Positions 1 to 27,812 of a stretch of DNA of 64,000 nt are shown one piece after another. The stretch comes from a virus. Location: positions 1 to 64,000 of the IMG/VR virus record IMGVR_UViG_3300044729_003839; one strand, written 5' to 3'. Within the stretch, counting starts at the first letter, position 1; each line of letters starts with the position of its first letter. The notes beneath the pieces were generated by a model. The model worked only from the letters and a program-made list of their open reading frames with translations, ran no database searches and had not been told where the DNA came from. The position numbers and the translations under genes were made by a program.

Positions 1-62
1 GATAAGGAGTCTTTATCAGTGTGAAACTTTATGTTAGGAAATCATAATATATTCCCCCTGTA

Positions 63-118
63 GTTGAAAGATATTTAATGGGGGTTTGCTACAATCCTGG
101 TCCTATCGTGCTTTCAAC
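63..118. promoter_or_regulatory. Divergent promoter-motif pair at the left edge
   Basis: A GTTGAAAGAT box at 63-72 points right toward the paralog array, and a GTTGAAAGC box on the minus strand (110-118) points out of the window to the left. Between them TGCTACAAT at 87-95 fits the extended -10 pattern seen elsewhere. This suggests divergent transcription with an unseen minus-strand gene to the left. Promoter activity is inferred. Confidence 0.45.
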
Positions 119-126
119 ACGGGATT

Positions 127-351
127 TTGGCTATGGCGGGAAATTTATTAGAGATCGGTGATGAGGATTACCTTATAGATTTAGTAAAAAGCACCTACGG
201 ATTGCGTTTATATATTAAGAGAGGTTATTTTACTAATTTTATTTATGTTTCAGAAACTAATAACAAGGACTGTCGAGTAAGGGCCTACAGTTGCAGTATT
301 ACCGAAGAACAATTCTTAGCTAATATAATAAAAGATTTCCTATTCTCATGA
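127..351 (+). CDS. Small array paralog 1 (subfamily A), unknown function
   Basis: A 74-residue protein, first of 16 similar small genes in tandem. It shows the subfamily A pattern: an N-terminal helix with Tyr-Leu, a strand with VYVS-like residues, and the C-terminal block FLANIIKDFLFS. The stop overlaps the next start as ATGA, so translational coupling is likely. It lies just downstream of the promoter motifs at 63-95. No known domain recognised; small acidic array genes of this sort in phages are often host-takeover or counter-defence proteins, but nothing here proves that. Confidence 0.75.
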   Translation: MAMAGNLLEIGDEDYLIDLVKSTYGLRLYIKRGYFTNFIYVSETNNKDCRVRAYSCSITEEQFLANIIKDFLFS

Positions 352-653
352 CTGAAGATCTTTTTACCAGAGTTCAAGAATTCCTAGAAAAGAACTCTTA
401 TCACAGTTACAGGTATTCAAATAATTATCTTGACCTAAGAGCAGAACTCACCGGGGAAATTGAAAGGCTAATAAAATGCCGCTTTAAATATGACGTATTG
501 GTTATTTTAGGGGATGAAGGTAACGAGTCATTGCTTTTTGACAATAATCAAACCATAATCTCATACCGTATCGAGAAATTCAAAAACGAGGATGTTTTCC
601 TCGGGCATATTATGAAAGATTTCATATTCGGATGTCCGGATCCGGGCGCCTAA
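348..653 (+). CDS. Small array paralog 2 (subfamily A), unknown function
   Basis: A 101-residue subfamily A member with the shared block FLGHIMKDFIF near the end, followed by an odd extra tail GCPDPGA that the other members lack, as if the original stop was lost. Overlaps the upstream gene by 4 bp. Downstream (654-765) is a short gap holding the hairpin GGGGCTTCGCCCC and a TGTGCTATGGT box that may restart transcription. Confidence 0.75.
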   Translation: MTEDLFTRVQEFLEKNSYHSYRYSNNYLDLRAELTGEIERLIKCRFKYDVLVILGDEGNESLLFDNNQTIISYRIEKFKNEDVFLGHIMKDFIFGCPDPGA

Positions 654-765
654 CGGCGCAGGGGCTTCGCCCCGTCCGTCTTGTGCTATGGTAGCCCCGG
701 AGTCTTTATGAGGTGGACGGAAAGAATGGAAGACTCTGCCGAATCCAGAGTATGTCCTATGGCTT

Positions 766-1011
766 ATGAATAATTACAAGTACAACGATAATTATTTAAA
801 ATTGCTAGACATTGAGCATGCAATGGGCAAATATTTGAGTGAAAAACTATCTTTAAAGATAAGGGTGCAGGTGCATGTAATTCCTCCCATTCGCGAGGGA
901 GTTACCGTCAGAGTGTCAGGTGGCGAGAGAATTATTTTCTACCCGTATGAAAGTCTACTTCAAAAAGATGTGTTCATGCTTCGTGTTTTCAAAGACTTTA
1001 TCTTTTCCTAG
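766..1011 (+). CDS. Small array paralog 3 (subfamily A), unknown function
   Basis: An 81-residue subfamily A member: N-terminal YNDNYLKLLDIEHAM, a central strand-rich segment, and the C-terminal block FMLRVFKDFIFS. The start chosen is the first ATG after the 654-765 gap. Only 2 bp separate it from the next gene. Function unknown. Confidence 0.75.
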   Translation: MNNYKYNDNYLKLLDIEHAMGKYLSEKLSLKIRVQVHVIPPIREGVTVRVSGGERIIFYPYESLLQKDVFMLRVFKDFIFS

Positions 1012-1013
1012 AC

Positions 1014-1292
1014 ATGGATTTTAACACGGTAGTCGAACTTTTTAGAAGGGAGGTGATACAGGTTTTTCCTTACGGGGATCACACATACCGATGCGAGCAG
1101 TTTCTAGAAGGATTGATTAAAAAGACCTACAACCTTAATGTGTGTGTTTACATAAGCCTTGTCTCTAATTTTATACATGTGTACGTCCCCGGACCTTCTG
1201 AAGGCGATGAGGCGACTTACAGGTTCGGAATAGATTTTGAAAGCGAAGACCAGTTTTTGGCCAATGTAATGAAAGATTTTCTTTTCTCTTAA
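1014..1292 (+). CDS. Small array paralog 4 (subfamily A), unknown function
   Basis: A 92-residue subfamily A member ending FLANVMKDFLFS, nearly identical in its last 12 residues to paralog 1, which argues that these two arose by duplication. The middle contains NLNVCVYISLVSNFIHVYV, the same predicted strand pair as in paralogs 1 and 5. Function unknown. Confidence 0.75.
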   Translation: MDFNTVVELFRREVIQVFPYGDHTYRCEQFLEGLIKKTYNLNVCVYISLVSNFIHVYVPGPSEGDEATYRFGIDFESEDQFLANVMKDFLFS

Positions 1293-1300
1293 CCAAGGCT

Positions 1301-1585
1301 ATGTACCAACTACCTGATGAAGATTTGCTCATGGAATGTTATAAGACATACGAACCAAGGAAAGGGCCATTGGCCCTTCTCGAAGATGAGATTGAAAACT
1401 TTATACAAGAAAAACTGTCCCTGTCTATGTGGGTTTATATTACTATGGGATGTGGTAGCCCAGAAAGAATAAAATTTGAAGTTTTTGAACGGGAGAAAAC
1501 TGGTTACAAAATCTATTTATACGAACAGGTCAAAGACCCGGGATTATTCCTAATGTACATTGTGAGGGATTTTTTGTTCTCATGA
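1301..1585 (+). CDS. Small array paralog 5 (subfamily A), unknown function
   Basis: A 94-residue subfamily A member with IENFIQEKLSLSMWVYITMG in the middle and FLMYIVRDFLFS at the end. The stop codon is embedded in the ATGATG start of a broken paralog that follows. Function unknown. Confidence 0.75.
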   Translation: MYQLPDEDLLMECYKTYEPRKGPLALLEDEIENFIQEKLSLSMWVYITMGCGSPERIKFEVFEREKTGYKIYLYEQVKDPGLFLMYIVRDFLFS

Positions 1586-1723
1586 TGAAATTCCCTTACT
1601 TAGAGATTATGTCTTTGTATTTGGATGATGATGATTATTATCGTGCAGACCGCTATGGTCCGGCTTGACGACGACCCCAGGGTGGTGTACGATGCCCTTA
1701 AGCTCAAGGAGATGTTCTCGTGA
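1582..1723 (+). pseudogene. Broken array paralog
   Basis: Reading from ATG 1582 gives an N-terminus like the other array members (MMKFPYLEIMSLYLDDDD) that stops after 28 residues. The next frame, open from 1604, supplies the family C-terminus ALKLKEMFS ending at TGA 1721-1723. The two halves together look like one paralog that lost its middle and its frame. It could instead encode two peptides; a decayed copy is the simpler reading. Confidence 0.55.
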
Positions 1724-1803
1724 TTTTTCCCGGCAGGTCGTTTTGGGACGACAGTGAAACCTGGAAATATAGCCATCGGGAAATATAGGTCACTATAGAT
1801 ATC

Positions 1804-2007
1804 ATGTTGCGTCAAAAGTTTCCTGGCAGTATAGTTTACTGTTTTATAAAGAAAAACACACAAAACTCAAACTACTATATTCTTGTAAAGACACCTGGTC
1901 CCCATAATAGTCCTATTTATTTTGAAAAACTAAACATGAGCGATACTGCAGAGTCACTTTTCTCTAAAATCGAACCGGCCGTTTCCCTCGCACTCTTATT
2001 CAAATGA
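1804..2007 (+). CDS. Small array paralog 6 (subfamily B), unknown function
   Basis: A 67-residue protein, shorter than its relatives. It carries a subfamily B-like strand (IVYCFIKKNTQNSNYYILV, compare HCFVRTRKSDHKVFVQLY in the next gene) and ends VSLALLFK. Overlaps the next gene by 4 bp (ATGA). The 80 bp before it hold no clear gene. Function unknown. Confidence 0.65.
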   Translation: MLRQKFPGSIVYCFIKKNTQNSNYYILVKTPGPHNSPIYFEKLNMSDTAESLFSKIEPAVSLALLFK

Positions 2008-2342
2008 CACCGCATAGGGAGGAGATTTTGCTCCGGACTTCCAAATTCTATTTGACAGATGCCGGAGTATCTCTGGAATTACGTATAGATAAAGAGTTAG
2101 GCAAAAGATTCTACTTCGTACATTGCTTTGTACGTACTAGAAAAAGTGATCATAAAGTCTTTGTTCAGTTATACGAGTATGGTCTGTCAGCTTACCCGGA
2201 TAAAAGAAACAGCATTATCATTGTAGAAGTAAAAGACTTCGAAGATTTTGAACCCCTGCTCGAGAAGCTGGTATCCTGTGCCGAGATGTATATCTTGTTC
2301 GGGGGTAGCAGGAGTGCAGCTTTTAGGGGGGAGGCGAAATAA
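2004..2342 (+). CDS. Small array paralog 7 (subfamily B), unknown function
   Basis: A 112-residue subfamily B member. Diagnostic segment HCFVRTRKSDHKVFVQLYEY is shared with 2635-2949 and 2931-3224. The family end AEMYILFGG is followed by an extra 14-residue tail. Shares one base with the next gene. Function unknown. Confidence 0.75.
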   Translation: MTPHREEILLRTSKFYLTDAGVSLELRIDKELGKRFYFVHCFVRTRKSDHKVFVQLYEYGLSAYPDKRNSIIIVEVKDFEDFEPLLEKLVSCAEMYILFGGSRSAAFRGEAK

Positions 2343-2632
2343 TGCTTTCTGCTCTATTAAATCAGATTGGTAAAGAGTGCAGAGAAACTCGCCTCTGGGC
2401 CGCCTATGGTAATGCCCGTACCTTGCTTGACAAAGAATGTTTTTCCGGGCGTTTCTACGCCTTCGTGGATAACGAGGACTGTTACCTGCAAAACGGAGAA
2501 GGAGGTAAATTCGTCTTTTCGTATTGGGAGGGCTTCTCGCAAAAGCTTAAACTAGAATACCCCTTAAACGAGTTTGTCAAAAACCCCGGGGGCATTGTTG
2601 CCCAGATCCGCCTCAAAATCCTTTTCTCTTAA
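2342..2632 (+). CDS. Small array paralog 8 (subfamily C), unknown function
   Basis: A 96-residue subfamily C member: RLWAAYGNARTLLDKE then FYAFVDNEDC, and C-terminal IVAQIRLKILFS. The same WxxYGxxRxLL pattern occurs at 3499, 4016 and 4260. Function unknown. Confidence 0.75.
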   Translation: MLSALLNQIGKECRETRLWAAYGNARTLLDKECFSGRFYAFVDNEDCYLQNGEGGKFVFSYWEGFSQKLKLEYPLNEFVKNPGGIVAQIRLKILFS

Positions 2633-2634
2633 CC

Positions 2635-2949
2635 ATGGAAAACACTTCGATTAGTGACAACTGGGATCAGTTCGAAGACACGCTCTTTACTAAGCAGAAG
2701 GAGTGCGTTATAGATATATTTTTAGAATCACATTACAAGGGGATACATTGCTGGGTTAGGCGCAAAATAAGTGACAACAAGGTGTTTGTAGAGCTTTATG
2801 ACTATTATGTGAGAGATGGTGAAAATGTTATTTTCGCGATACTCGAATTCGATGAGGGCGAGTCTTTCTTGCAGCAAGAGGTGAAAGCCTGTGTTAGCAT
2901 GTACTTGCTGTTTAAGAGAGAGTCAATCCCATGGTTAATACTACCTTAA
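2635..2949 (+). CDS. Small array paralog 9 (subfamily B), unknown function
   Basis: A 104-residue subfamily B member with HCWVRRKISDNKVFVELYDY and C-terminal VSMYLLFKR plus a 9-residue extension. Its 3' end overlaps the next gene by 19 bp. Function unknown. Confidence 0.75.
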   Translation: MENTSISDNWDQFEDTLFTKQKECVIDIFLESHYKGIHCWVRRKISDNKVFVELYDYYVRDGENVIFAILEFDEGESFLQQEVKACVSMYLLFKRESIPWLILP

Positions 2950-3224
2950 AGACTTTAAGAAATTCTTTTGATTTTGAACGTGCGATGGGTGACTGGAGCT
3001 TGGAGCATTCCCTAGACCATCTGCTAGAGCAAGACTTTTGCAAAATTCATTGTCTTGTGAAGACGAGTAACACCAATAATAAAAGATTTGTGGAAGTGTA
3101 TGATTATGGCGGTACATACACCAAATCTATACTTTTGAAAGAGATTACGCATGAAGACAACCCCGAAGATTTATATAAAAGGTTAATGCCTGAGGTAAAA
3201 CTTCTCGTGCTGTTCGGGGATTAA
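2931..3224 (+). CDS. Small array paralog 10 (subfamily B), unknown function
   Basis: A 97-residue subfamily B member with HCLVKTSNTNNKRFVEVYDY and C-terminal VKLLVLFGD. Starts inside the preceding gene in another frame. Function unknown. Confidence 0.75.
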   Translation: MVNTTLKTLRNSFDFERAMGDWSLEHSLDHLLEQDFCKIHCLVKTSNTNNKRFVEVYDYGGTYTKSILLKEITHEDNPEDLYKRLMPEVKLLVLFGD

Positions 3225-3229
3225 TTTTT

Positions 3230-3502
3230 GTGGGTAAGAAAGAAAACTTCAGAAGCCTCTTTGGCAAAGATTGGAGCAGATTTTACATAATGGATTATTT
3301 TTTCGACAGGGGGTATTCAGCCCGGGTAGTGGCAAAACTAAACGATAATGGTTATGTGTTAGGCTACCGTAGTTTTATGGAGCTGAGAAGGTTTGAAAAC
3401 TTCCCACAGCCTGTGGCCGCGTCTCTGGACCTGTCAGGGTATGATGAGGAGAACCCTGACGAGGCGATTCAGGCCCTTGAACTGCTGTTGTTATTCCAAT
3501 GA
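3230..3502 (+). CDS. Small array paralog 11 (divergent), unknown function
   Basis: A 90-residue protein starting with GTG (the first in-frame start after the preceding stop). It keeps the array end AIQALELLLLFQ but the rest is divergent. Overlaps the next gene by 4 bp (ATGA). Function unknown. Confidence 0.7.
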   Translation: MGKKENFRSLFGKDWSRFYIMDYFFDRGYSARVVAKLNDNGYVLGYRSFMELRRFENFPQPVAASLDLSGYDEENPDEAIQALELLLLFQ

Positions 3503-3774
3503 TTAAACGCCTTGAAAACCAGTACACAACTTATTTAATGTGGCATGCCTATGGAATTCTAAGAGATCGTCTTGAAAGAGAGTTTGCAACTCCCGAGTAT
3601 AATTACTACCTGTTTATCGAAGACGATGGAGTCGAGTGCTCCTCAAAAACCCTAGTATTCTCGTGCTGGAAAAATGGGGAGAATAAGTGTCGTATGAGAT
3701 TTCCTATACCTTTTCTGATTGATGACCAGATGGCGATATATACTCAAATAAAGATGAAGGTGATGTTCTCATGA
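3499..3774 (+). CDS. Small array paralog 12 (subfamily C), unknown function
   Basis: A 91-residue subfamily C member: LMWHAYGILRDRLERE, YYLFIEDDGVE, and the end YTQIKMKVMFS. Overlaps both neighbours by ATGA. Function unknown. Confidence 0.75.
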   Translation: MIKRLENQYTTYLMWHAYGILRDRLEREFATPEYNYYLFIEDDGVECSSKTLVFSCWKNGENKCRMRFPIPFLIDDQMAIYTQIKMKVMFS

Positions 3775-4019
3775 CACCTGTAAAAGTGTGGAACAACGCC
3801 AAAGTCGCCTTCGGCAAACAAGGTTTAGAAATTATACCCTACTCGGATGGGAAAAAGTTTAAGGTAAGGATTTTCTCAGTAAGCTCTTCAACAAATACAA
3901 TTCAATGGGTTTCCAAGCCGTCGCAAGAATTCCCTCTCAACTTATTAGACGAGTTGGACGAAAACGGCCTTAAAGATCTTGTCTTCAAATACCTTATTCT
4001 TTCGAATTTCGAATCATGA
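3771..4019 (+). CDS. Small array paralog 13 (divergent), unknown function
   Basis: An 82-residue protein with ends LVFKYLILSNFES. Its C-terminus resembles the family but is extended, and the rest aligns poorly with subfamilies A-C. Overlaps both neighbours by 4 bp. Function unknown. Confidence 0.7.
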   Translation: MTPVKVWNNAKVAFGKQGLEIIPYSDGKKFKVRIFSVSSSTNTIQWVSKPSQEFPLNLLDELDENGLKDLVFKYLILSNFES

Positions 4020-4255
4020 TGAGCGAACAGGAGGAGACGGTTTGGGGTAGTTACGGCATAGCAAAAGATTTGCTAAGTGAGAAGCTACAGGGCGTAAGGT
4101 TTTGGTTTTTTATTGAAAGGACCAATATGCCTTTAGAAGAGTGGAAAGTGGTAATCGCATCACTCGATCATGATGAAATGTATAGCTTGGATGAAATGAT
4201 AGGCAAAGAGAAGGAATTTTGTGATAAAGTCGCCCTTAAGTTCCTGTTCTCTTAG
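4016..4255 (+). CDS. Small array paralog 14 (subfamily C), unknown function
   Basis: A 79-residue subfamily C member: TVWGSYGIAKDLLSEKL, FWFFIERTN, and the end KVALKFLFS. Function unknown. Confidence 0.75.
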   Translation: MMSEQEETVWGSYGIAKDLLSEKLQGVRFWFFIERTNMPLEEWKVVIASLDHDEMYSLDEMIGKEKEFCDKVALKFLFS

Positions 4256-4259
4256 TATT

Positions 4260-4529
4260 ATGACTTTAGCCTTCTCTGATTATAACGACAATGACCTTTG
4301 GGATAAATACTCTGAATTGAGACAGGGAGTAATAGAACTGCTTATGGATGATAAGAGGGATTTTGCTCTGTTCTTTCGTAGGGATAGAAACTTATTAGAA
4401 TTTAACTTATTTGAGGGCAAGATAAATGAATACAATGGAAAAATAACTATGCAGTTTGACGTGTCAGACTTTAAAGAGAACCCCAGTCAAGTGTTTGAAC
4501 AAATCCGCCTTACCATCTTGTTTCAATGA
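4260..4529 (+). CDS. Small array paralog 15 (subfamily C), unknown function
   Basis: An 89-residue subfamily C member: DLWDKYSELRQGVIELL, FALFFRRDRN, and the end VFEQIRLTILFQ. The ATG at 4260 is preferred over an in-frame ATG at 4221 because it follows the previous stop and matches the length of its relatives. Overlaps the next gene by ATGA. Function unknown. Confidence 0.75.
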   Translation: MTLAFSDYNDNDLWDKYSELRQGVIELLMDDKRDFALFFRRDRNLLEFNLFEGKINEYNGKITMQFDVSDFKENPSQVFEQIRLTILFQ

Positions 4530-4765
4530 GCCTTTTATTGAATGTAAAACTTTTTAAAGAGGGTTTAAAGAGTTTTTTGGGGGAGAATCATTACGTCCAT
4601 TTCCGTCCATATTCTTATGCCGAAAGGCCGGGAGTGGGAAAAGTTTACATATTACCGAATTTATGGACGTATGAATTCCCAGTAGAAGAGTTAAAAGACT
4701 GGGAAAACTTGCTGGGCAAAATCAAGTTAAAATATCTTTTCGATACGGCTAGTCGTCATGATTAA
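4526..4765 (+). CDS. Small array paralog 16 (divergent), unknown function
   Basis: A 79-residue protein, last of the array, with C-terminal LLGKIKLKYLFD and a short tail. Its end overlaps a possible tiny minus-strand frame (4749-4859). Function unknown. Confidence 0.7.
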   Translation: MSLLLNVKLFKEGLKSFLGENHYVHFRPYSYAERPGVGKVYILPNLWTYEFPVEELKDWENLLGKIKLKYLFDTASRHD

Positions 4766-5679
4766 GCCAGCTCGGGAAGTTTATCTTTTCACCTAAAGCT
4801 TGATCCAAGAGGCCCAGCAGAAACCGCCCCAGACGCGTTGCAACGGGCTTTACCACCATCACCCCTACGAAGGCGCTGAGGGCCGTGTGGGCGTCATCTG
4901 AATAGGGGTGGGGGTCACGTAACCGAGCTGGCCCGCCCCCGGGGACGTCTTCATCACGTCCAGAGCCGTTAAAGGGGGCTTAAGCCTGTCATCAGGCTTT
5001 CAACGGCCAGCGGCCACTCTCTCCCCTTATACGCCTTATATTGTTTTGCAAAAAGAAAAGAAAAAAAGAAAAGAAAATACATAAGAATATAGGGGTATAA
5101 AAAAAGACACGAGAAGTTCGGGTTCCGGCCGCCAGAACAGGCGTTTCAGCCATACCAAGGCATCTCACCTTAAGACTCATGAGAATCACGCCTTAAAAGG
5201 GGTAAAAACGACCTCGGGCGGAAAAATATTCTGTTGTTGTTTTGTACAAAACATTGGCCTAAAAATGGGTAAGAATTCGGCAAAAACACAAAACATTTTC
5301 GGAAAAACACAAAACATTTGCCGTAAAAAGACAAAACATTTCCAAAACCCCTTGCTATGACTAGGAAAAAATTCTTTTGTTGTTTTGCACAAAATCTTTG
5401 AAAATGCGAATTTTTTCGAGCGTTTTTTGATCGTTTTCGAGCAAAATCTCACGCAAAACAACAAAACATACAAAACATTCTCGAAAACCTAGTCCAGCAC
5501 TAGAAAAATGTTTTGCAAAAATTTGCAATAGAACTTGATTTTGTTCGAAAAACGGCCGTAAAAATCCGATTTTTGGAATTTTTTAGTCGGGTTCCCGCAA
5601 TTCTCACACAAGTCTCAAAGTGAGAGAGGCTTCTTTTTACCACAGGGGTGGTAAAATCTGAAAGGCAAATAGAGACATC
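4766..5679. other. Gene-poor region between the array and the next gene
   Basis: No convincing gene of ordinary length is present. On the minus strand a GTTGAAAGCC motif at 4995-5004 points left toward two tiny frames: 4865-4954 (29 codons) and 4749-4859 (36 codons, containing LGRFLLGLLDQALGEKI). Neither has a clear ribosome binding site. An inverted repeat CCAGCTCGG / CCGAGCTGG brackets about 4768-4931. From about 5230 the sequence becomes AT-rich with repeated ACAAAACATT (separate entry). TGGTAAAAT at 5649-5657 is a likely -10 box for the gene at 5680. Confidence 0.5.
5238..5515. promoter_or_regulatory. Phased ACAAAACATT repeats with palindrome, candidate origin or operator
   Basis: Exact ACAAAACATT copies lie at 5246, 5288, 5309, 5331 and 5470, with an abutting near-copy at 5461 and an inverted AATGTTTTG at 5507. 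The first four are spaced 42, 21 and 22 bp, two or four helical turns. The first copy is half of the perfect palindrome TGTTTTGTACAAAACA (5238-5253); an imperfect version TGTTTTGCACAAAATC is at 5381-5396. Phased repeats in an AT-rich gap are typical of iteron origins or multi-site operators. Which one applies is inference. Confidence 0.5.
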
Positions 5680-6726
5680 GTGGTACGTAAGAAAAGCCCA
5701 ACCCTATCCGCCGCTCAAATTACCGAGCTGTCGAAGACCATGAGCCGGGAGAGTTTCAATCTCCTGTTAAGGACAATGTTGTCCAGAGAACAGAAAGAGC
5801 AAGAACTCGCCCTAAGCCAATCAAAGGAGCGGTTACTAGACAAGAAGATAAAACTCGCTAGTATCATGAAATCTACAATACAAGAGTATGCTGAATCCTG
5901 TGCAGAGAACAAATACACCCCTATGGCTATAAGCAGTATCTCTGCCGCGTTTGCAGCGATGACGGGGGAAAACCCAGACCTGGGGCTGCCTGATATGTCT
6001 GTGTTCAACGAAAAGAATACACCTTCACCACCGACGGACAACGCCCTAGACATGGCGGGATTTGACGAGCGAGTGAAGAAAGCGGAGGGTCAAGGATTCC
6101 GCTGGAACGACAGAAACGAGATGCCAGCCAATAAATCTACTGCGTTGAAAAAGATCGCGAAGTGGGAAAGTGAATTAGAGGAAGGCAGAAATATTGACCT
6201 TAAGTCTGTGTGTGAGATAGACTATGATTTGGAGGTTAAGCAGAAGTCCAAAGCGTTTATTGTTGGTGTATGCGAATCGCTTGAAAATAGCCTCAACCTT
6301 AGTAATACGCCATTATCACCATATTTAAAAAGGCGGTTCTCTGCACTTAAAGAGAAGTATTGTTCAAGCGCTGTTGAAGTGGCAGTGCAAGCCGACCCTA
6401 AAGTGTCGATAAACGACCAGATCAAAGGCCTTTATGATCACATATTTAAAAATAACAAGACAGAAAATCATTGGCAAGAACACCAACCTTACCTACGTAA
6501 GCTGTTCGCAAACAGGGGGGACGATATTCGCAAGGTATGTGGCGCGACCTTGGGGCGGCTGGTGTGCATAGGAGTTTACCCGCCAACAGTGAAATGGCGA
6601 GACGAGGAGGAAAAGCGCCGCTTTGAGAGGAATGCTCCTGGCTTATGGGTAGAAGAACAGAGAAAGTATTACGCCCCGCAACTTGAAGCGCTACGGGACG
6701 AATACATAGCCCGGGTAGGGCTCTAA
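5680..6726 (+). CDS. Unknown protein, 348 aa
   Basis: Starts with GTG at 5680, about 23 bp after a TGGTAAAAT box and downstream of the ACAAAACATT repeat array, so it may be controlled by whatever binds there. The N-terminal 70 residues are helical and charged, the middle is polar and probably disordered, and the C-terminal 150 residues are helical and basic (e.g. YLKRRFSALKEKY). No membrane segments or recognised motifs. A DNA-binding or replication-initiator role would suit the neighbouring repeats but is speculative. Confidence 0.7.
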   Translation: MVRKKSPTLSAAQITELSKTMSRESFNLLLRTMLSREQKEQELALSQSKERLLDKKIKLASIMKSTIQEYAESCAENKYTPMAISSISAAFAAMTGENPDLGLPDMSVFNEKNTPSPPTDNALDMAGFDERVKKAEGQGFRWNDRNEMPANKSTALKKIAKWESELEEGRNIDLKSVCEIDYDLEVKQKSKAFIVGVCESLENSLNLSNTPLSPYLKRRFSALKEKYCSSAVEVAVQADPKVSINDQIKGLYDHIFKNNKTENHWQEHQPYLRKLFANRGDDIRKVCGATLGRLVCIGVYPPTVKWRDEEEKRRFERNAPGLWVEEQRKYYAPQLEALRDEYIARVGL

Positions 6727-6727
6727 T

Positions 6728-8089
6728 TCAAATTGATATCCTGCCCGAGCCTGCCGGATACCCGATAGAATCCCGGTCTTTGATCGAGTGGTAAAGTTTG
6801 CTGTTATAATTAATCCCAAAACTATTAGAAATCACTATTCTGGGGTAATCATCAAGGCTCGACCATCTGTAATATTTAAACCCTTTTGACTGGTTAATGG
6901 CATGCATTCTGTCCACAACCTGTGATTCAAGATTGCCTGGTGCGCTCTTGGCGTACCAGTTATCCCACAAAATATTGCAGGTCATATAGAATTCAAAAGC
7001 CTCATCACTTTTAAGCGCGAGTAGTTTGCGGCAAATCTCATTCTTGCCAGTCAACAAGTCTAGTCCTTTGAACTGAAGCTTAGTCTTGTAGGGGCCGTAG
7101 TCTGTATGAAAGCCGATCATTTTCAAGTCTTTGAAAACAGCTTCCAGATCGACACTTTCGAAATCACCCGTGTCAAGACCATTTCTTAACATTACAGAGC
7201 CCCAGCACAAGTCGGACAGGTGGCAAGAGTTTCGGGAATCTCCGAACTGCATACTGTAATAGTGATGTCCTCGCCTTGTTGTAACATCCTTTTTAATTTC
7301 GTTTAGGACCTGATCCCGGTACAAGTCGGCAAAATCTTTTAACAGGTCGTCTGTAATACGCATCTCATCCAAACTCTTGACTAAATGCCTCAAGGAGTAC
7401 GACCCGCACATAGAGATGAATTGGAAAAGGGTTTTGTAGTCCGCCTTTTGACGGATCATCTCAAACGTGTTCAGCATCTCCCTTCTCGAAAGGACTATGA
7501 ACCCCTCTTTGCGAGAATTATAATCCTGGTCGATAGAATTAATAAACTCGCTTTGCTTCGCAACACCTTTGTTGAGAAAAGTCAGCCTGTTTGAGAAATA
7601 TAGTTTCGACATGTTGCTATTGACAACATCCGAGACTCTTTGCCGCACATCAGAATCCTTAAGCTCTCTAAAGAATTCCGCCGTCTTCATCATCGACAAC
7701 ACCTGCTCCAGTATCAAGACGTTGTTAATCTTCGGCGAAGTCACCAACGCTCGGCATATCACCTCTCTATTATGCGATTTGACCTTGTGCAAAGAGCCGC
7801 CGATACTGTTCAAAAATTGTGCCGGATCGGTATACGCTTCGTAAATGTCTTTGACGACAGGGTCCGAGGCGAACAAGCTTTTGACGGTAAAGCTTGTGTT
7901 GTTAATCACTTCTTTGATGTAAAGGCGTGCCGCCGCGCACATCAAAGCGGTACTTGCGTTCGGGTTCGAGGCAACCGCTTTTCGAACCCTGGGCGAGGTG
8001 GTCGAATCCCATACCCTCGCCAACTCTTCTGACGTAATGTCATCAGACTCCGCCAGTTTCAAAAGGTCCTGTACCTGCTGCTGGCTCAT
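6728..8089 (-). CDS. Unknown 453-residue protein with helical N-terminus
   Basis: Chosen start is the ATG at 8089 (MSQQQVQDLLKLAE), which follows AGGAACAGAAA and overlaps the stop of the upstream gene as ATGA; an in-frame start at 8164 would overlap that gene by 79 bp. The N-terminus has a segment TSPRVRKAVASNPNAS typical of leucine-rich-variant (HEAT-like) repeats, where aged or damaged proteins recur as helices. The remainder is alpha-helical without a recognised catalytic motif. Convergent with the 5680 gene, one base apart. Function unknown. Confidence 0.7.
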   Translation of the reverse strand: MSQQQVQDLLKLAESDDITSEELARVWDSTTSPRVRKAVASNPNASTALMCAAARLYIKEVINNTSFTVKSLFASDPVVKDIYEAYTDPAQFLNSIGGSLHKVKSHNREVICRALVTSPKINNVLILEQVLSMMKTAEFFRELKDSDVRQRVSDVVNSNMSKLYFSNRLTFLNKGVAKQSEFINSIDQDYNSRKEGFIVLSRREMLNTFEMIRQKADYKTLFQFISMCGSYSLRHLVKSLDEMRITDDLLKDFADLYRDQVLNEIKKDVTTRRGHHYYSMQFGDSRNSCHLSDLCWGSVMLRNGLDTGDFESVDLEAVFKDLKMIGFHTDYGPYKTKLQFKGLDLLTGKNEICRKLLALKSDEAFEFYMTCNILWDNWYAKSAPGNLESQVVDRMHAINQSKGFKYYRWSSLDDYPRIVISNSFGINYNSKLYHSIKDRDSIGYPAGSGRISI

Positions 8090-8376
8090 TTTCTGTTCCT
8101 CTTGCGGCTGGTGCTCGTGGTCGCGATAGTTTCCGTCAACTGGCACCAAAGCTCGTTCGAGCATTCTACGCTACAAACGTGCTCGACGGCGTAACGAGAT
8201 TTGAACAGGGTGCTTTTGCCGCAGATGCCGCAGCGCCCTGCGGTCTCTTGCCGGACGTAAACGTCGTCATGGCATTCGACAAACGCTTCGTTGGGATTGA
8301 AATAAGTCCGCTTCGGGCGGACGACGGTGGATGTTGGCACGGTGAATTTCCGAACTGAGAAAATTTTACCATACAA
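8086..8376 (-). CDS. Small zinc-ribbon-like protein
   Basis: A 96-residue protein with CGICGK at about residues 51-56 followed by HVCSVEC about 14 residues later, giving a Cys4-type zinc knuckle. The tail is basic and Ser/Thr-rich (TSTSRKRNRK). It is the first gene of a two-gene minus-strand unit, translationally coupled to the gene at 6728-8089. The 51-bp gap to the divergent gene at 8428 holds GTAGTATCATT, a possible promoter for the plus strand. Role probably nucleic-acid binding (inference). Confidence 0.65.
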   Translation of the reverse strand: MYGKIFSVRKFTVPTSTVVRPKRTYFNPNEAFVECHDDVYVRQETAGRCGICGKSTLFKSRYAVEHVCSVECSNELWCQLTETIATTSTSRKRNRK

Positions 8377-8427
8377 TCCCGTTTAAGGCGAGGTAGTATC
8401 ATTTTTTCACCTGAAATCCCCGAGCAC

Positions 8428-8802
8428 ATGAAAAACCCCAAGCGTTACCCTGAGATTTTTGTCGAGAAGGACTGGCTCGTATCCCGGGGCGACATTATAA
8501 AACGAGTGGTCAAGATTGACGACAACACGTACCGGGTGATTTACACCAATCCGGTCTTTGGGGACACGATGGAGATATTTGAAGTGGATGGCGATGGGGA
8601 CTTATGCCTTAAGTCTATATTTACGCCCGAGATGCAGACGGAGGAAGAGCTGGAATCGGTCAAAGATTATTACAACAATTACATACTAGATGGCGAACAA
8701 ACGTATATCGAGTATTTCAACAAGGCGGTGGGATATTTTCTTCTTTCAAGGAATATCGGGGTGTATCCGACCTCGGTCTATGGTGAGAGGGGTAAGGAGT
8801 GA
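8428..8802 (+). CDS. Unknown 124-residue protein
   Basis: An acidic soluble protein with alternating strands near the N-terminus (GDIIKRVVKIDDNTYRVIY) and a helical C-terminus. No recognised motif. Its stop overlaps the GTG start of the homing endonuclease gene, which suggests that gene was inserted right behind it. Confidence 0.65.
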   Translation: MKNPKRYPEIFVEKDWLVSRGDIIKRVVKIDDNTYRVIYTNPVFGDTMEIFEVDGDGDLCLKSIFTPEMQTEEELESVKDYYNNYILDGEQTYIEYFNKAVGYFLLSRNIGVYPTSVYGERGKE

Positions 8803-10004
8803 CGAGAAAACATACTCAAGAAGAGTTTGATTCTTTGCTGGCGGTTAAAAATCATAATGTTATTAGAATAGACAATTATATTAATTCCTTCACAAAAATA
8901 AAGTTTAAATGCCTAAGGCATAATAAGATTTATCAGGCATCTCCTAGGCACTGCTTAAAAGGTCATGGATTAACATGCTGTAGTTCAAAAGTAGTAAGGA
9001 GAGAAAAAGCAGCTCTAGAATTTGACTCCAAGTTAAGTATAAAAAATCCACTGATCAAGAGAGTAGGAAAGTATATTGACTCTCATACAAAAATAAACTT
9101 TAAGTGCTTAAGGCATAATCAAATTCATCAGGCAAGTCCCCGCCATCCCTTAGAAGGTCGCGGGTTAAAATGCTGCAGCTCGGGGAGATTAAAAGGAGAT
9201 AGAGCAGCTTTAGAATTTGACTCCAAGTTAAGTATAAAAAATCCACTGATCAAGAGAGTAGGAAAGTATATTGACTCTCATACAAAAATAAACTTTAAGT
9301 GCTTAAGGCATAATCAAATTTATCAGGCAAGTCCCCGCCATCCCTTAGAAGGTCGCGGGTTAAAATGCTGCAGCTCGGGGAGATTAAAAGGAGATAGAGC
9401 AGCTTTAGAATTTGACTCCAAGTTAAGTATAAAAAATCCACTGATCAAGAGAGTAGGAAAGTATATTGACTCTCATACAAAAATAAACTTTAAGTGCTTA
9501 AGGCATAATCAAATTTATCAGGCAAGTCCCCATCATTGTTTAGGGGGCAAAGGCCTTGCATGCTGTGCCGCCCCTAAGTTAGGAAGTTCGCTTAAAAATC
9601 TTTTAAAGGCCGAAAATGATTACCAGACCGTTTTTTATACTTACTCTCTCTCCCGGTACAAAAAATATGTTAAATTTGGCATAGCCAGAAGAATAGAGTC
9701 CAGGAAGGATTTGGAGTACGGCAAGGAAATATTTGCCAAGCAATTTAACACCAGATTGGAAGCATTTGCCATAGAACAAGCTTGCCTTAAAGATTCTCAA
9801 TTGGCAAAAGATTGCCCTGAGGAACTTGACCTGAATAAATGGCCTGGCCGTACAGAAGTGAGAAAATGTTCGAGACAGACGGCTTTGGCCCGTGCGAACT
9901 TTTACGTTCAAGAACTCGAGTCGATAGGGGTGAAAGAATTCATCCTTAAATACTTAAATCCTTCTCCGTACGAGAAAGCTTTATTGAAACGAAAATCTTT
10001 GTAA
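8799..10004 (+). CDS. Homing-endonuclease-like protein: tandem Cys/His modules plus GIY-YIG-like domain
   Basis: Four copies of a roughly 65-residue module (residues 1-270), each with KFKCLRHN...CCSS spacing that looks like a small zinc-binding DNA-recognition unit, followed by a C-terminal domain with FYTYSLSRYKKYVKFGIA, an Arg pair and FAIEQACL, which fits a degenerate GIY-YIG/T5orf172 nuclease (Tyr...Tyr...KxG, Arg, Glu). A relative with two modules lies at 23013-23840 and shares CPEEL...WPGKTEV near the end. Codons are AT-rich compared with neighbours, typical of homing genes. It sits directly upstream of the topoisomerase gene. GTG start overlaps the previous stop. Nuclease activity is inferred. 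Confidence 0.7.
   Translation: MTRKHTQEEFDSLLAVKNHNVIRIDNYINSFTKIKFKCLRHNKIYQASPRHCLKGHGLTCCSSKVVRREKAALEFDSKLSIKNPLIKRVGKYIDSHTKINFKCLRHNQIHQASPRHPLEGRGLKCCSSGRLKGDRAALEFDSKLSIKNPLIKRVGKYIDSHTKINFKCLRHNQIYQASPRHPLEGRGLKCCSSGRLKGDRAALEFDSKLSIKNPLIKRVGKYIDSHTKINFKCLRHNQIYQASPHHCLGGKGLACCAAPKLGSSLKNLLKAENDYQTVFYTYSLSRYKKYVKFGIARRIESRKDLEYGKEIFAKQFNTRLEAFAIEQACLKDSQLAKDCPEELDLNKWPGRTEVRKCSRQTALARANFYVQELESIGVKEFILKYLNPSPYEKALLKRKSL
9018..9527 (+). repeat. 195-bp direct repeats inside the endonuclease gene
   Basis: Two full copies (9018-9212, 9213-9407) and a partial third (9408 to about 9527) are almost identical at the nucleotide level; the period is exactly 195 bp, i.e. 65 codons. Only a few changes (such as CATCAG versus TATCAG at the HQIHQ/HNQIYQ position) separate the first two. 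They encode one DNA-recognition module each, so the gene gained modules by very recent in-frame duplication. Confidence 0.9.
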
Positions 10005-26056: not shown

Positions 26057-26848
26057 TTAGAAATTATCCGATTCCTGTAAACCGCCATCGTATGTAGTGA
26101 TATTTCCATCGCTGTCTTCGACCACTAAAATATCACCTTCTTGTGGATTCACGGCTTCCTGCGTGTCGGCGAACGATGCCAGGTCGCGGGTTGTTTCCAA
26201 TTCATCAAACAGTTTGTTAACTGCTAGTGTACTATCACTGATAATCGTTACATCGTTACGGCTTAAGTTGCCGCTAGGGCCTCTGTCCGTAACACTATTA
26301 ATAACTTCGGCGTTCTTTCTCCGATATATGTTCCAGCGATTGTTCGTGCCCCAACGCATTTCCCACCTCGCGAGAGATACATCGGTAAGAGACCGATCTC
26401 TTTGCGTGTTCGACATAACCATTGCACATTGACTGTTCCAATACCTGTACGCCTCTTGCCATTTAATACCTGTAGACGGACTTGCTTTACTCGCCCAGAT
26501 GTCAAGCTGCTTGAGTGCTGCCTCTGCCGCATCGACAACAGCTTGCCTAGGACGCAGCGTATCCAGATACCAGCGGGCAATAATAGCTTGCGTACGCCGA
26601 AACGACCCGGCAATCAACAACTTGCCTGCAGGCGGGGCAGTCTCTCTAAAACTTTGTATCAACAACGCCGCGTCATTCAACGCGAGTTGGATTTTTTCGT
26701 AGTTAATAGTGTTCGCGGTGGGATCTTCGAGCCGCGACAACTCAAGGGCCTCGTTGTACCCGAAAATGTCTATAAAATAGTCGACTGAAGCCGGGCTGCA
26801 CTGATCAGCTACACCGTGTGAATCGGGGGGTGGGGTGTACGGTGCCAT
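26057..26848 (-). CDS. Mu gp36-like head/neck protein with fibre-hinge tail
   Basis: A 263-residue protein. Residues 15-125 (SPASVDYFIDIFGYNEALEL, ALNDAALLIQSFRE, IARWYLDTLRPRQAVVDAAE) follow the DUF1320/gp36 pattern of Mu-like phages: N-terminal fG element, AxxDA helix, and the IARxxL...A helix. The C-terminus carries the fibre-type motif DLASFADTQEAVNPQEGDIL, which the usual gp36 lacks. The gp37-like gene is close by. A T4-late-like TATAAATA follows its GTTGAAAGCT motif. Confidence 0.6.
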   Translation of the reverse strand: MAPYTPPPDSHGVADQCSPASVDYFIDIFGYNEALELSRLEDPTANTINYEKIQLALNDAALLIQSFRETAPPAGKLLIAGSFRRTQAIIARWYLDTLRPRQAVVDAAEAALKQLDIWASKASPSTGIKWQEAYRYWNSQCAMVMSNTQRDRSLTDVSLARWEMRWGTNNRWNIYRRKNAEVINSVTDRGPSGNLSRNDVTIISDSTLAVNKLFDELETTRDLASFADTQEAVNPQEGDILVVEDSDGNITTYDGGLQESDNF

Positions 26849-26864
26849 TCAGTTCGCAAAACAC

Positions 26865-26885
26865 TATTTATACAGAGCTTTCAAC
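26865..26885 (-). promoter_or_regulatory. Late-type promoter: GTTGAAAGCT plus TATAAATA
   Basis: On the minus strand GTTGAAAGCT (26876-26885) is followed after 3 bp by TATAAATA (26865-26872), the core of T4 late promoters. It lies 17 bp upstream of the gp36-like gene. Confidence 0.65.
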
Positions 26886-26893
26886 GAAAAATG

Positions 26894-26902
26894 TGCTAGA
26901 AT
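26894..26902 (+). promoter_or_regulatory. Extended -10 box for the endonuclease gene
   Basis: TGCTAGAAT at 26894-26902, part of TGTGCTAGAAT, 25 bp before the endonuclease start. Host-type promoter inferred. Confidence 0.45.
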
Positions 26903-26927
26903 CCGGCCTGGTGAAGGCCTTTTTGGT

Positions 26928-27812
26928 ATGGAAGACACGAATTTTGTTGTTTACATGTATGTCAGGGAGGACGGTACTCCCTACTATATTGGGAAGGGTC
27001 GCCCCTGGAGACCTTACAGGAGAGGGGGAAGACCTTGTGTAACTCCTTCCAGAAATAGAATTTTAATTCTATGCAAAGATATAAGTGAAAAGTCAGCTCT
27101 GAGCATAGAAAAAGACTTAATAGCTGGGTATGGCAGAAAGGATCTAGATCCTGTCAACGGTTTATTGCGTAATCGTTCAGACGGGGGAGAGGGTACTTCT
27201 AATCCTTCACCGGAGAGGATTAAAAGACTCAGGGAAAGGATGACAGGGGAAAGAAACCCGATGTATGGGAAAAGAGGCATTTTGAGTCCAATTTTTGGTA
27301 TAAAACGCACAGAAGAGCAAAGAAGAAGAGCTTCAGAGCAGAAGAGGGGTCCTAATAATTCTTTTTATGGAAAGAAAGGCAAAGAACATAACAGATATGG
27401 CATACCTCACTCTCAGGAAACTCTAGAAAAAATATCTAAATTTTACGACTGGTATCACCCTAATCATGGTGAGATATTAAAAGTTTCAACTAGCAGATTG
27501 CCCGTTATGTTTCCAGACCAAAAGCTGGACAGATCTTCATTATGTAAAGTTTCGAATGGAATTTGTTACCACCACAAGGGCTGGAGACTTTTAAAAAATA
27601 AAGATGTAGACATCTGCAAAGAGTTGAGAAAATCCAGGAGAAAGGGCTCATACAACTGGCACCACAAAGACTATGGGGATCTAAAAGATCTCTCCTGTGT
27701 AGAGCTTATTGCTAAATTTCCGGAATTAAAACTGGCCCTTTCCTCTCTAAGTAAAGTTTCTTTGGGGAGTCAAAAAGCACATAGAGGTTGGAGCATAATT
27801 ATTACTGAGTAA
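26928..27812 (+). CDS. GIY-YIG endonuclease with NUMOD3 repeats
   Basis: From ATG 26928 a 294-residue protein: GIY-YIG core VVYMYVREDGTPYYIGKG with RPWRPYRR and the Glu in LSIEKDL, followed by SDGGEG. Then NUMOD3-type DNA-binding repeats (NPMYGKRG, SPIFGIKR, NNSFYGKKG, HNRYGIPH), and C-terminal paired helices with LSKVS/LCKVS. It lies on the plus strand between minus-strand gp36-like and capsid genes and has its own promoter, so it is a free-standing homing gene. Confidence 0.85.
   Translation: MEDTNFVVYMYVREDGTPYYIGKGRPWRPYRRGGRPCVTPSRNRILILCKDISEKSALSIEKDLIAGYGRKDLDPVNGLLRNRSDGGEGTSNPSPERIKRLRERMTGERNPMYGKRGILSPIFGIKRTEEQRRRASEQKRGPNNSFYGKKGKEHNRYGIPHSQETLEKISKFYDWYHPNHGEILKVSTSRLPVMFPDQKLDRSSLCKVSNGICYHHKGWRLLKNKDVDICKELRKSRRKGSYNWHHKDYGDLKDLSCVELIAKFPELKLALSSLSKVSLGSQKAHRGWSIIITE

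Follow-up and report, generated by a model that had tools for sequence, protein, structure and literature searches.

A hypervariable tandem family of small genes at a fixed locus of S-TIM5-like cyanophages

The window studied here spans 64,000 bases at the start of a 122,965-base contig from an uncultivated virus (IMG/VR record IMGVR_UViG_3300044729_003839). It opens with a tandem array of 16 intact small genes and one broken unit (u1-u17, positions 127-4765), part of a tandem multigene family that is hypervariable and, as a locus, clade-wide among S-TIM5-like cyanophages. The virus was placed among these phages because its DNA polymerase is of the mitochondrial-gamma type and 56% identical to that of cyanophage S-TIM5, its topoisomerase is 41% identical, and its portal and protease are Mu-like. 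The units are paralogous within three subfamilies, have been lost, gained, replaced and fused relative to a close relative, and change rapidly in amino acid sequence; tandem arrays with the same predicted fold occupy the same position in more distant phages. We favour, with moderate confidence, the reading that the array encodes a set of host-interaction inhibitors, probably acting in counter-defence, that has been expanded and shuffled by recombination.

Composition of the array and paralogy of its units

The listing and translation of open reading frames place all units on the + strand, with 67-112 codons in the intact genes, and BLASTP inside the array resolves three clusters, A, B and C. 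The original prediction, made from the sequence alone, of 16 paralogous genes and one broken unit falling into three subfamilies is thereby confirmed. Subfamily A comprises u1 (127-351, 74 aa, from a TTG start at 127 with an alternative ATG at 133), u2 (348-653, 101 aa), u3 (766-1011, 81 aa), u4 (1014-1292, 92 aa) and u5 (1301-1585, 94 aa), the core of which (1373-1582) is the protein modelled below. Subfamily B comprises u7 (1804-2007, 67 aa), which is without the first helix and has a longer ortholog in the close relative G001, together with u8 (2004-2342, 112 aa), u10 (2635-2949, 104 aa) and u11 (2931-3224, 97 aa). Subfamily C comprises u9 (2342-2632, 96 aa), u12 (3230-3502, 90 aa), u13 (3499-3774, 91 aa), u14 (3771-4019, 82 aa, a weak member), u15 (4016-4255, 79 aa), u16 (4260-4529, 89 aa from the ATG at 4260, which is preferred over a GTG at 4221) and u17 (4526-4765, 79 aa). 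The broken unit, u6 (1582-1722), has lost its frame, and an internal stretch has evidently been deleted from it, since G001 carries an intact ortholog of 68 aa (L006 2328-2534). ATGA-type (-4) overlaps, also predicted to be frequent, join seven adjacent pairs (u1/u2, u5/u6, u7/u8, u12/u13, u13/u14, u14/u15 and u16/u17), and the remaining intergenic gaps are mostly short, with larger ones after u2 (112 bases) and around u6. The units are probably co-transcribed and would be partly coupled in translation through these overlaps.

Within subfamilies, BLASTP matches are well above chance (for example, u8/u10 with an E-value of 1e-12, u1/u4 with 2e-11, u9/u13 with 7e-10 and u2/u3 with 2e-8) at identities of about 20-40%. 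Hidden Markov models (HMMs) built from A or C recover every member of their own subfamily and no other gene in this genome, and have no match in S-TIM5 or S-CBWM1. Between subfamilies the links are weak by both pairwise and profile-profile search, and the profile-profile alignments, a check of the kind originally proposed, are not significant. When one subfamily was held out and the other genes of the same phage were ranked along with it using an HMM of the other two, the area under the curve (AUC) was 1.00 for B from A and C, 0.97 for A from B and C, and 0.82 for C from A and B. The weakest member of the array is u14. The hydrophobic C-terminal ending that had been described for all units is a property of most: 11 of the 16 array genes carry a hydrophobic C-terminus with F within the last residues, as against 6 of 111 other genes.

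The statement that no named family shows this pattern also holds, as no family in Pfam, PHROGs, the PDB sequences or PADLOC is matched by most members in agreement. In Pfam, PHROGs and the PDB sequences, no family is hit by more than one member; the best E-values are 0.0012 in Pfam (to UPF0203, from one of 21 members), 0.055 in PHROGs and 0.6 among PDB sequences. One of 21 members matches PDC-S01 of PADLOC at an E-value of 0.0014, a match that was rejected as it was not reproduced in ten rescanned window members. A blastn search of window positions 1-8000 against INPHARED phages, a tblastn search of INPHARED with ten units, five from the window and five from the syntenic family described below, and an Rfam scan across window positions 1-9000 all returned nothing, and such an array is not described in the openly accessible literature searched. 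Thus, the family is undescribed in the libraries and papers searched.

Turnover between relatives and the same locus in more distant phages

IMG/VR scans with u4, u9 and u11 identified G001 (locus L006) as the sole convincing relative. Its flanking DNA is 96-99% identical to the window and most units are held in common, and the composition of the array is different. Two additional A-type units precede u4 in G001, and at the position of u10 stands a unit that joins an A-type body to the C-terminal helix of u12. As the segments of this A/C chimera are joined in one open frame, it supports a common scaffold for A and C. The u13 of G001 is a replacement allele, 45% identical amid otherwise ~96% identical DNA, and its alleles of u2, u3 and u7 are divergent. 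All recognised units of G001, including u6, are intact.

The rate of amino-acid change was compared between the window and G001 over 11 units that appear vertically inherited, leaving out the recombinant-looking u2, u3, u7 and u13. These 11 units carry 103 nonsynonymous and 31 synonymous changes (site-corrected ratio of nonsynonymous to synonymous change, dN/dS, of 0.83), as against 15 and 42 in two flanking genes (0.10), a contrast with a Fisher p of 1e-10 (3e-9 for all 15 compared units). The flank control on the right, a 348-aa homolog of S-TIM5 gp003 (5680-6726, + strand) that is the conserved right neighbour of the array, has a dN/dS of 0.04. The ratio is at least 1.2 in five units, and u15 has nine nonsynonymous changes and no synonymous change. 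These counts suggest positive selection on units of the array, with no per-unit test for dN/dS above 1 being significant. A role tuned by dosage alone, one of those originally envisaged, is unlikely because copies within a subfamily are so divergent and their amino-acid rates are near-neutral to elevated.

Profile A1 varied too much to be scanned for as a pattern, and the conserved neighbours of the array (topoisomerase and a small zinc-finger protein) were used as queries to fetch S-TIM5-like contigs from IMG/VR, and these have topoisomerases 40-60% identical. Tandem arrays of genes of about 60-110 aa lie directly upstream of the gp003 homolog in G004 (L021), G003 (L020) and G011 (L075), G005 and G006 have one unit each of the same syntenic family, and other small genes are present in G008 and G009. 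This family, with 32 HMM members over all contigs, is mutually homologous and is recognised by the hallmark LxxxCxxYGL and a C-terminal helix that usually ends in F. Its model (predicted local distance difference test, pLDDT, of 93) has an α-β3-α fold with an order of elements identical to that of the window family. Common descent with A, B and C is likely, and is not proven because neither hhalign nor hmmsearch finds a significant connection, despite a held-out ranking above background (AUC 0.79-0.93). In the search for the same array in related phages, originally proposed as a check, G001 thus has it in re-sorted form; the arrays of G003, G004 and G011 share its predicted fold and belong to a family distinct in sequence. 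No relative of the syntenic family turned up in GTDB species genomes. In S-TIM5 itself, the interval between vwa and gp003 (NC_019516, 159-172 kb) resembles the array in genomic position and in its many small genes, one of them annotated as anti-restriction; neither the window family nor the syntenic one has a detectable member there.

The variability described above would also be expected under relaxed selection, where expendable duplicates gather changes and are lost with no selected diversity, and the pooled dN/dS, the broken u6 of the window and the variable number of units all fit such a course. We nevertheless regard it as unlikely. The window preserves 16 of its 17 units intact and G001 every one that is recognised, and the ~134 substitutions in the 11 units include no stop, where about five are expected if 4% of random changes, by our estimate, give stops. 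Moreover, u14 is strongly constrained, and divergent relatives still have arrays at this locus.

Predicted fold and proposed function

From a joint alignment of A, B and C, AlphaFold2 predicts a single α-β-β-β-α domain (H-E-E-E-H; pLDDT 79, predicted TM-score 0.60). Foldseek searches against the PDB and viral models, a structural check of the kind originally proposed, gave no significant match, and nothing found among families, folds or papers points to a function. The original interpretation is plausible and supported in part: the notion of many variants of one scaffold agrees with this joint model, the held-out ranking and the A/C chimera, and rapid diversification accompanied by recombination is supported as well.

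The nearest topologies, none of them significant, are double-stranded RNA-binding domains (dsRBDs), RNase III, SRP9/14 and HicA-like folds for the array model, and a 58-residue S. pneumoniae toxin-antitoxin chain and a ribosome hibernation factor for the syntenic family. These resemblances raise the prospect of an RNA-directed family, whose dsRBD-like or HicA-like units would bind or cut RNA, for example in host mRNA shutoff or in regulating phage transcripts. Size agrees with such folds, as does the order of the secondary structure elements, and in the dsRBD comparison the order of elements holds for both models (Foldseek E-value 0.33, query TM-score, TMq, 0.49, not significant). However, unlike dsRBD, SRP9/14 and HicA proteins, to which they have no significant structural or sequence match (best Foldseek E-values 0.33 and 0.09, TM ~0.5), the units lack an RNA-binding motif. 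The basic dsRBD motif is absent at the N-terminal end of the second, last helix, where all three subfamilies have an acidic or neutral character, and alignments A1-A3, A8 and A9 show neither a conserved histidine column corresponding to the catalytic histidine of HicA nor any other conserved catalytic residue. RNA binding is therefore not our leading idea, given the missing motif and a charge that varies among members (isoelectric points of 4.5-9.4), and we consider an RNA-directed family quite improbable. The same spread of isoelectric points ruled out DNA mimicry by uniformly acidic proteins.

We instead favour a repertoire of inhibitors built on one small α-β-β-β-α protein in a tandem recombining family at a fixed locus, in which the C-terminal packing helix and the third strand are kept while the first strand and the loops vary from unit to unit; each unit could therefore bind a different partner. 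Such proteins would most likely act by binding host proteins, mainly targets of defence or takeover, and inhibiting them, with new variants arising via duplication, allele replacement and the swapping of segments between units. Mapped on the model, and counting u2, u3 and u13 as well, the changes between the window and G001 fall mostly in three places: the loop joining strand 2 to strand 3 (31%), the one that follows helix 1 (27%), and strand 1 (20%). Helix 2 and strand 3 are the least affected (8-9%). This would be the pattern expected from a constant core with a variable binding surface.

Several observations weigh against this reading. No member matches a known counter-defence protein in Pfam, PHROGs or the PDB sequences, and homology between the subfamilies depends on ranking, model and chimera, with no significant E-value. 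The pooled dN/dS is below 1, and the five units above 1, a post-hoc choice, differ from neutrality with a p of only 0.08, so that positive selection is not proven. Synonymous changes are few, and all were counted in a single phage pair. Further, u14 is strongly conserved (ratio 0.06) and almost invariant between the relatives, and diversification therefore does not extend to every unit.

The gene annotated as anti-restriction in the corresponding S-TIM5 interval speaks for the inhibitor reading. A precedent is offered by T4, whose small anti-toxin TifA (85 aa) differs from phage to phage and gains copies through recombination when defence exerts pressure (PMC9391042), and where the homing endonuclease SegB can drive such amplification of anti-defence genes (PMC13096335). 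Like the T4 island (dmd, tifA and 61.2/adfA), the array is a cluster of small accessory genes that varies between relatives and whose copy number is altered by recombination, and homing-type endonuclease genes are present in this phage as in the SegB system. The T4 island differs in that its genes are mutually unrelated and naturally single-copy, whereas the array consists of 16-18 diverged tandem paralogs of one predicted fold.

Tandem sets of diverse small proteins also occur as the immunity-protein loci of polymorphic toxin systems (PMC3482391), and the units could accordingly serve in immunity or exclusion, or act as antitoxins, guarding the infected cell or the phage against competing mobile elements. 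Such a role in competition between phages seems improbable, as neither a toxin partner nor a membrane segment or superinfection family was found in the array and no PADLOC match reproduces. A set of minor virion or assembly proteins kept in several versions, suggested by a few small genes annotated as virion structural in the equivalent S-TIM5 interval, is the least probable explanation, since the array lies outside the structural blocks, differs in composition between close relatives and matches no structural family.

Little is known of the defences of cyanobacteria or of how cyanophages counter them, and the locus offers a compact and testable set of candidates in the form of 16-18 fast-changing variants of a scaffold. 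Comparing arrays between phages would reveal which hosts or defences drive them, and if the scaffold is a general inhibitor framework, the arrays would supply many ready-made binders for mapping unknown defences. The repertoire reading would also suggest a route by which a lytic phage stores and shuffles a repertoire instead of single accessory genes.

Borders and neighbouring elements

The left border of the array coincides with the contig end. In six related contigs an antisense 3' fragment of vwa lies directly upstream of the array (L006 1-132, L020 2841-3122, L021 1-237, L026 55-111, L072 18261-18551 and L075 17709-17792); the idea that the piece in G001 is an assembly chimera was dropped as five other contigs also carry it. 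In G004, a MoxR ATPase gene and vwa are at the right contig end and the array is at the opposite end. Beyond the antisense vwa piece, G003 has an AAA ATPase gene and small genes on the - strand (L087 3493-5996; L020 68-2571), and two of these small genes end in FRKLHKLE(R/W)LFG, possibly a second arm of the array.

The two ends of the G004 contig, and likewise those of the G015 contig, are reverse complements of each other over 127 bases, a length that is itself not biological since 127 is a common assembler word size, and positions 1-90 of S-TIM5 are the reverse complement of 161513-161602. We read these as an inverted repeat adjoining the array, which either is terminal or borders an invertible segment. 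The observation also concerns window position 1 and the right end of G000. In asfarviruses and poxviruses, terminal families of tandem diverged paralogs lie near an inverted repeat and vary in copy number between isolates. We tentatively suggest that the array is perhaps a dedicated diversity locus beside the inverted repeat, where duplication, loss, allele replacement and segment swapping would continually yield new binding specificities against host defences. It would then parallel, in phages, the terminal multigene families that these large eukaryotic viruses carry; the comparison is one of analogy only, the proteins, hosts and folds being unrelated.

An HNH-endonuclease-like gene (8799-10004), whose internal repeat copies differ between close relatives, lies 4 kb downstream of the array, and a NUMOD3 homing-endonuclease-like gene is found at 26835-27812. 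Such homing-type genes could promote recombination at the array.

The 9-base motif GTTGAAAGC has 19 sites in the window against 0.72 expected (including 110, 4996, 14756, 16750, 17061 and 25434), often 10-40 bases before a gene, and is also present in related phages; judged from its placement, it is likely a phage-specific promoter or regulatory motif. It is found at both array borders on the - strand, at 110-118, where it reads away from the array, and at 4996-5004, beyond the right border, from where it points back toward the array. A one-base variant of a genome-wide promoter-like motif, GTTGAAAG, putatively functional as such, reads into the array at 63-70 (+ strand). Counts of consensus sigma-70 promoters and terminators in window positions 1-6000 show no clear excess over shuffles. 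Between the array and the 348-aa gene, positions 5210-5490 are A-rich and noncoding, with repeated ACAAAACATT units at a spacing of about 21 bases.

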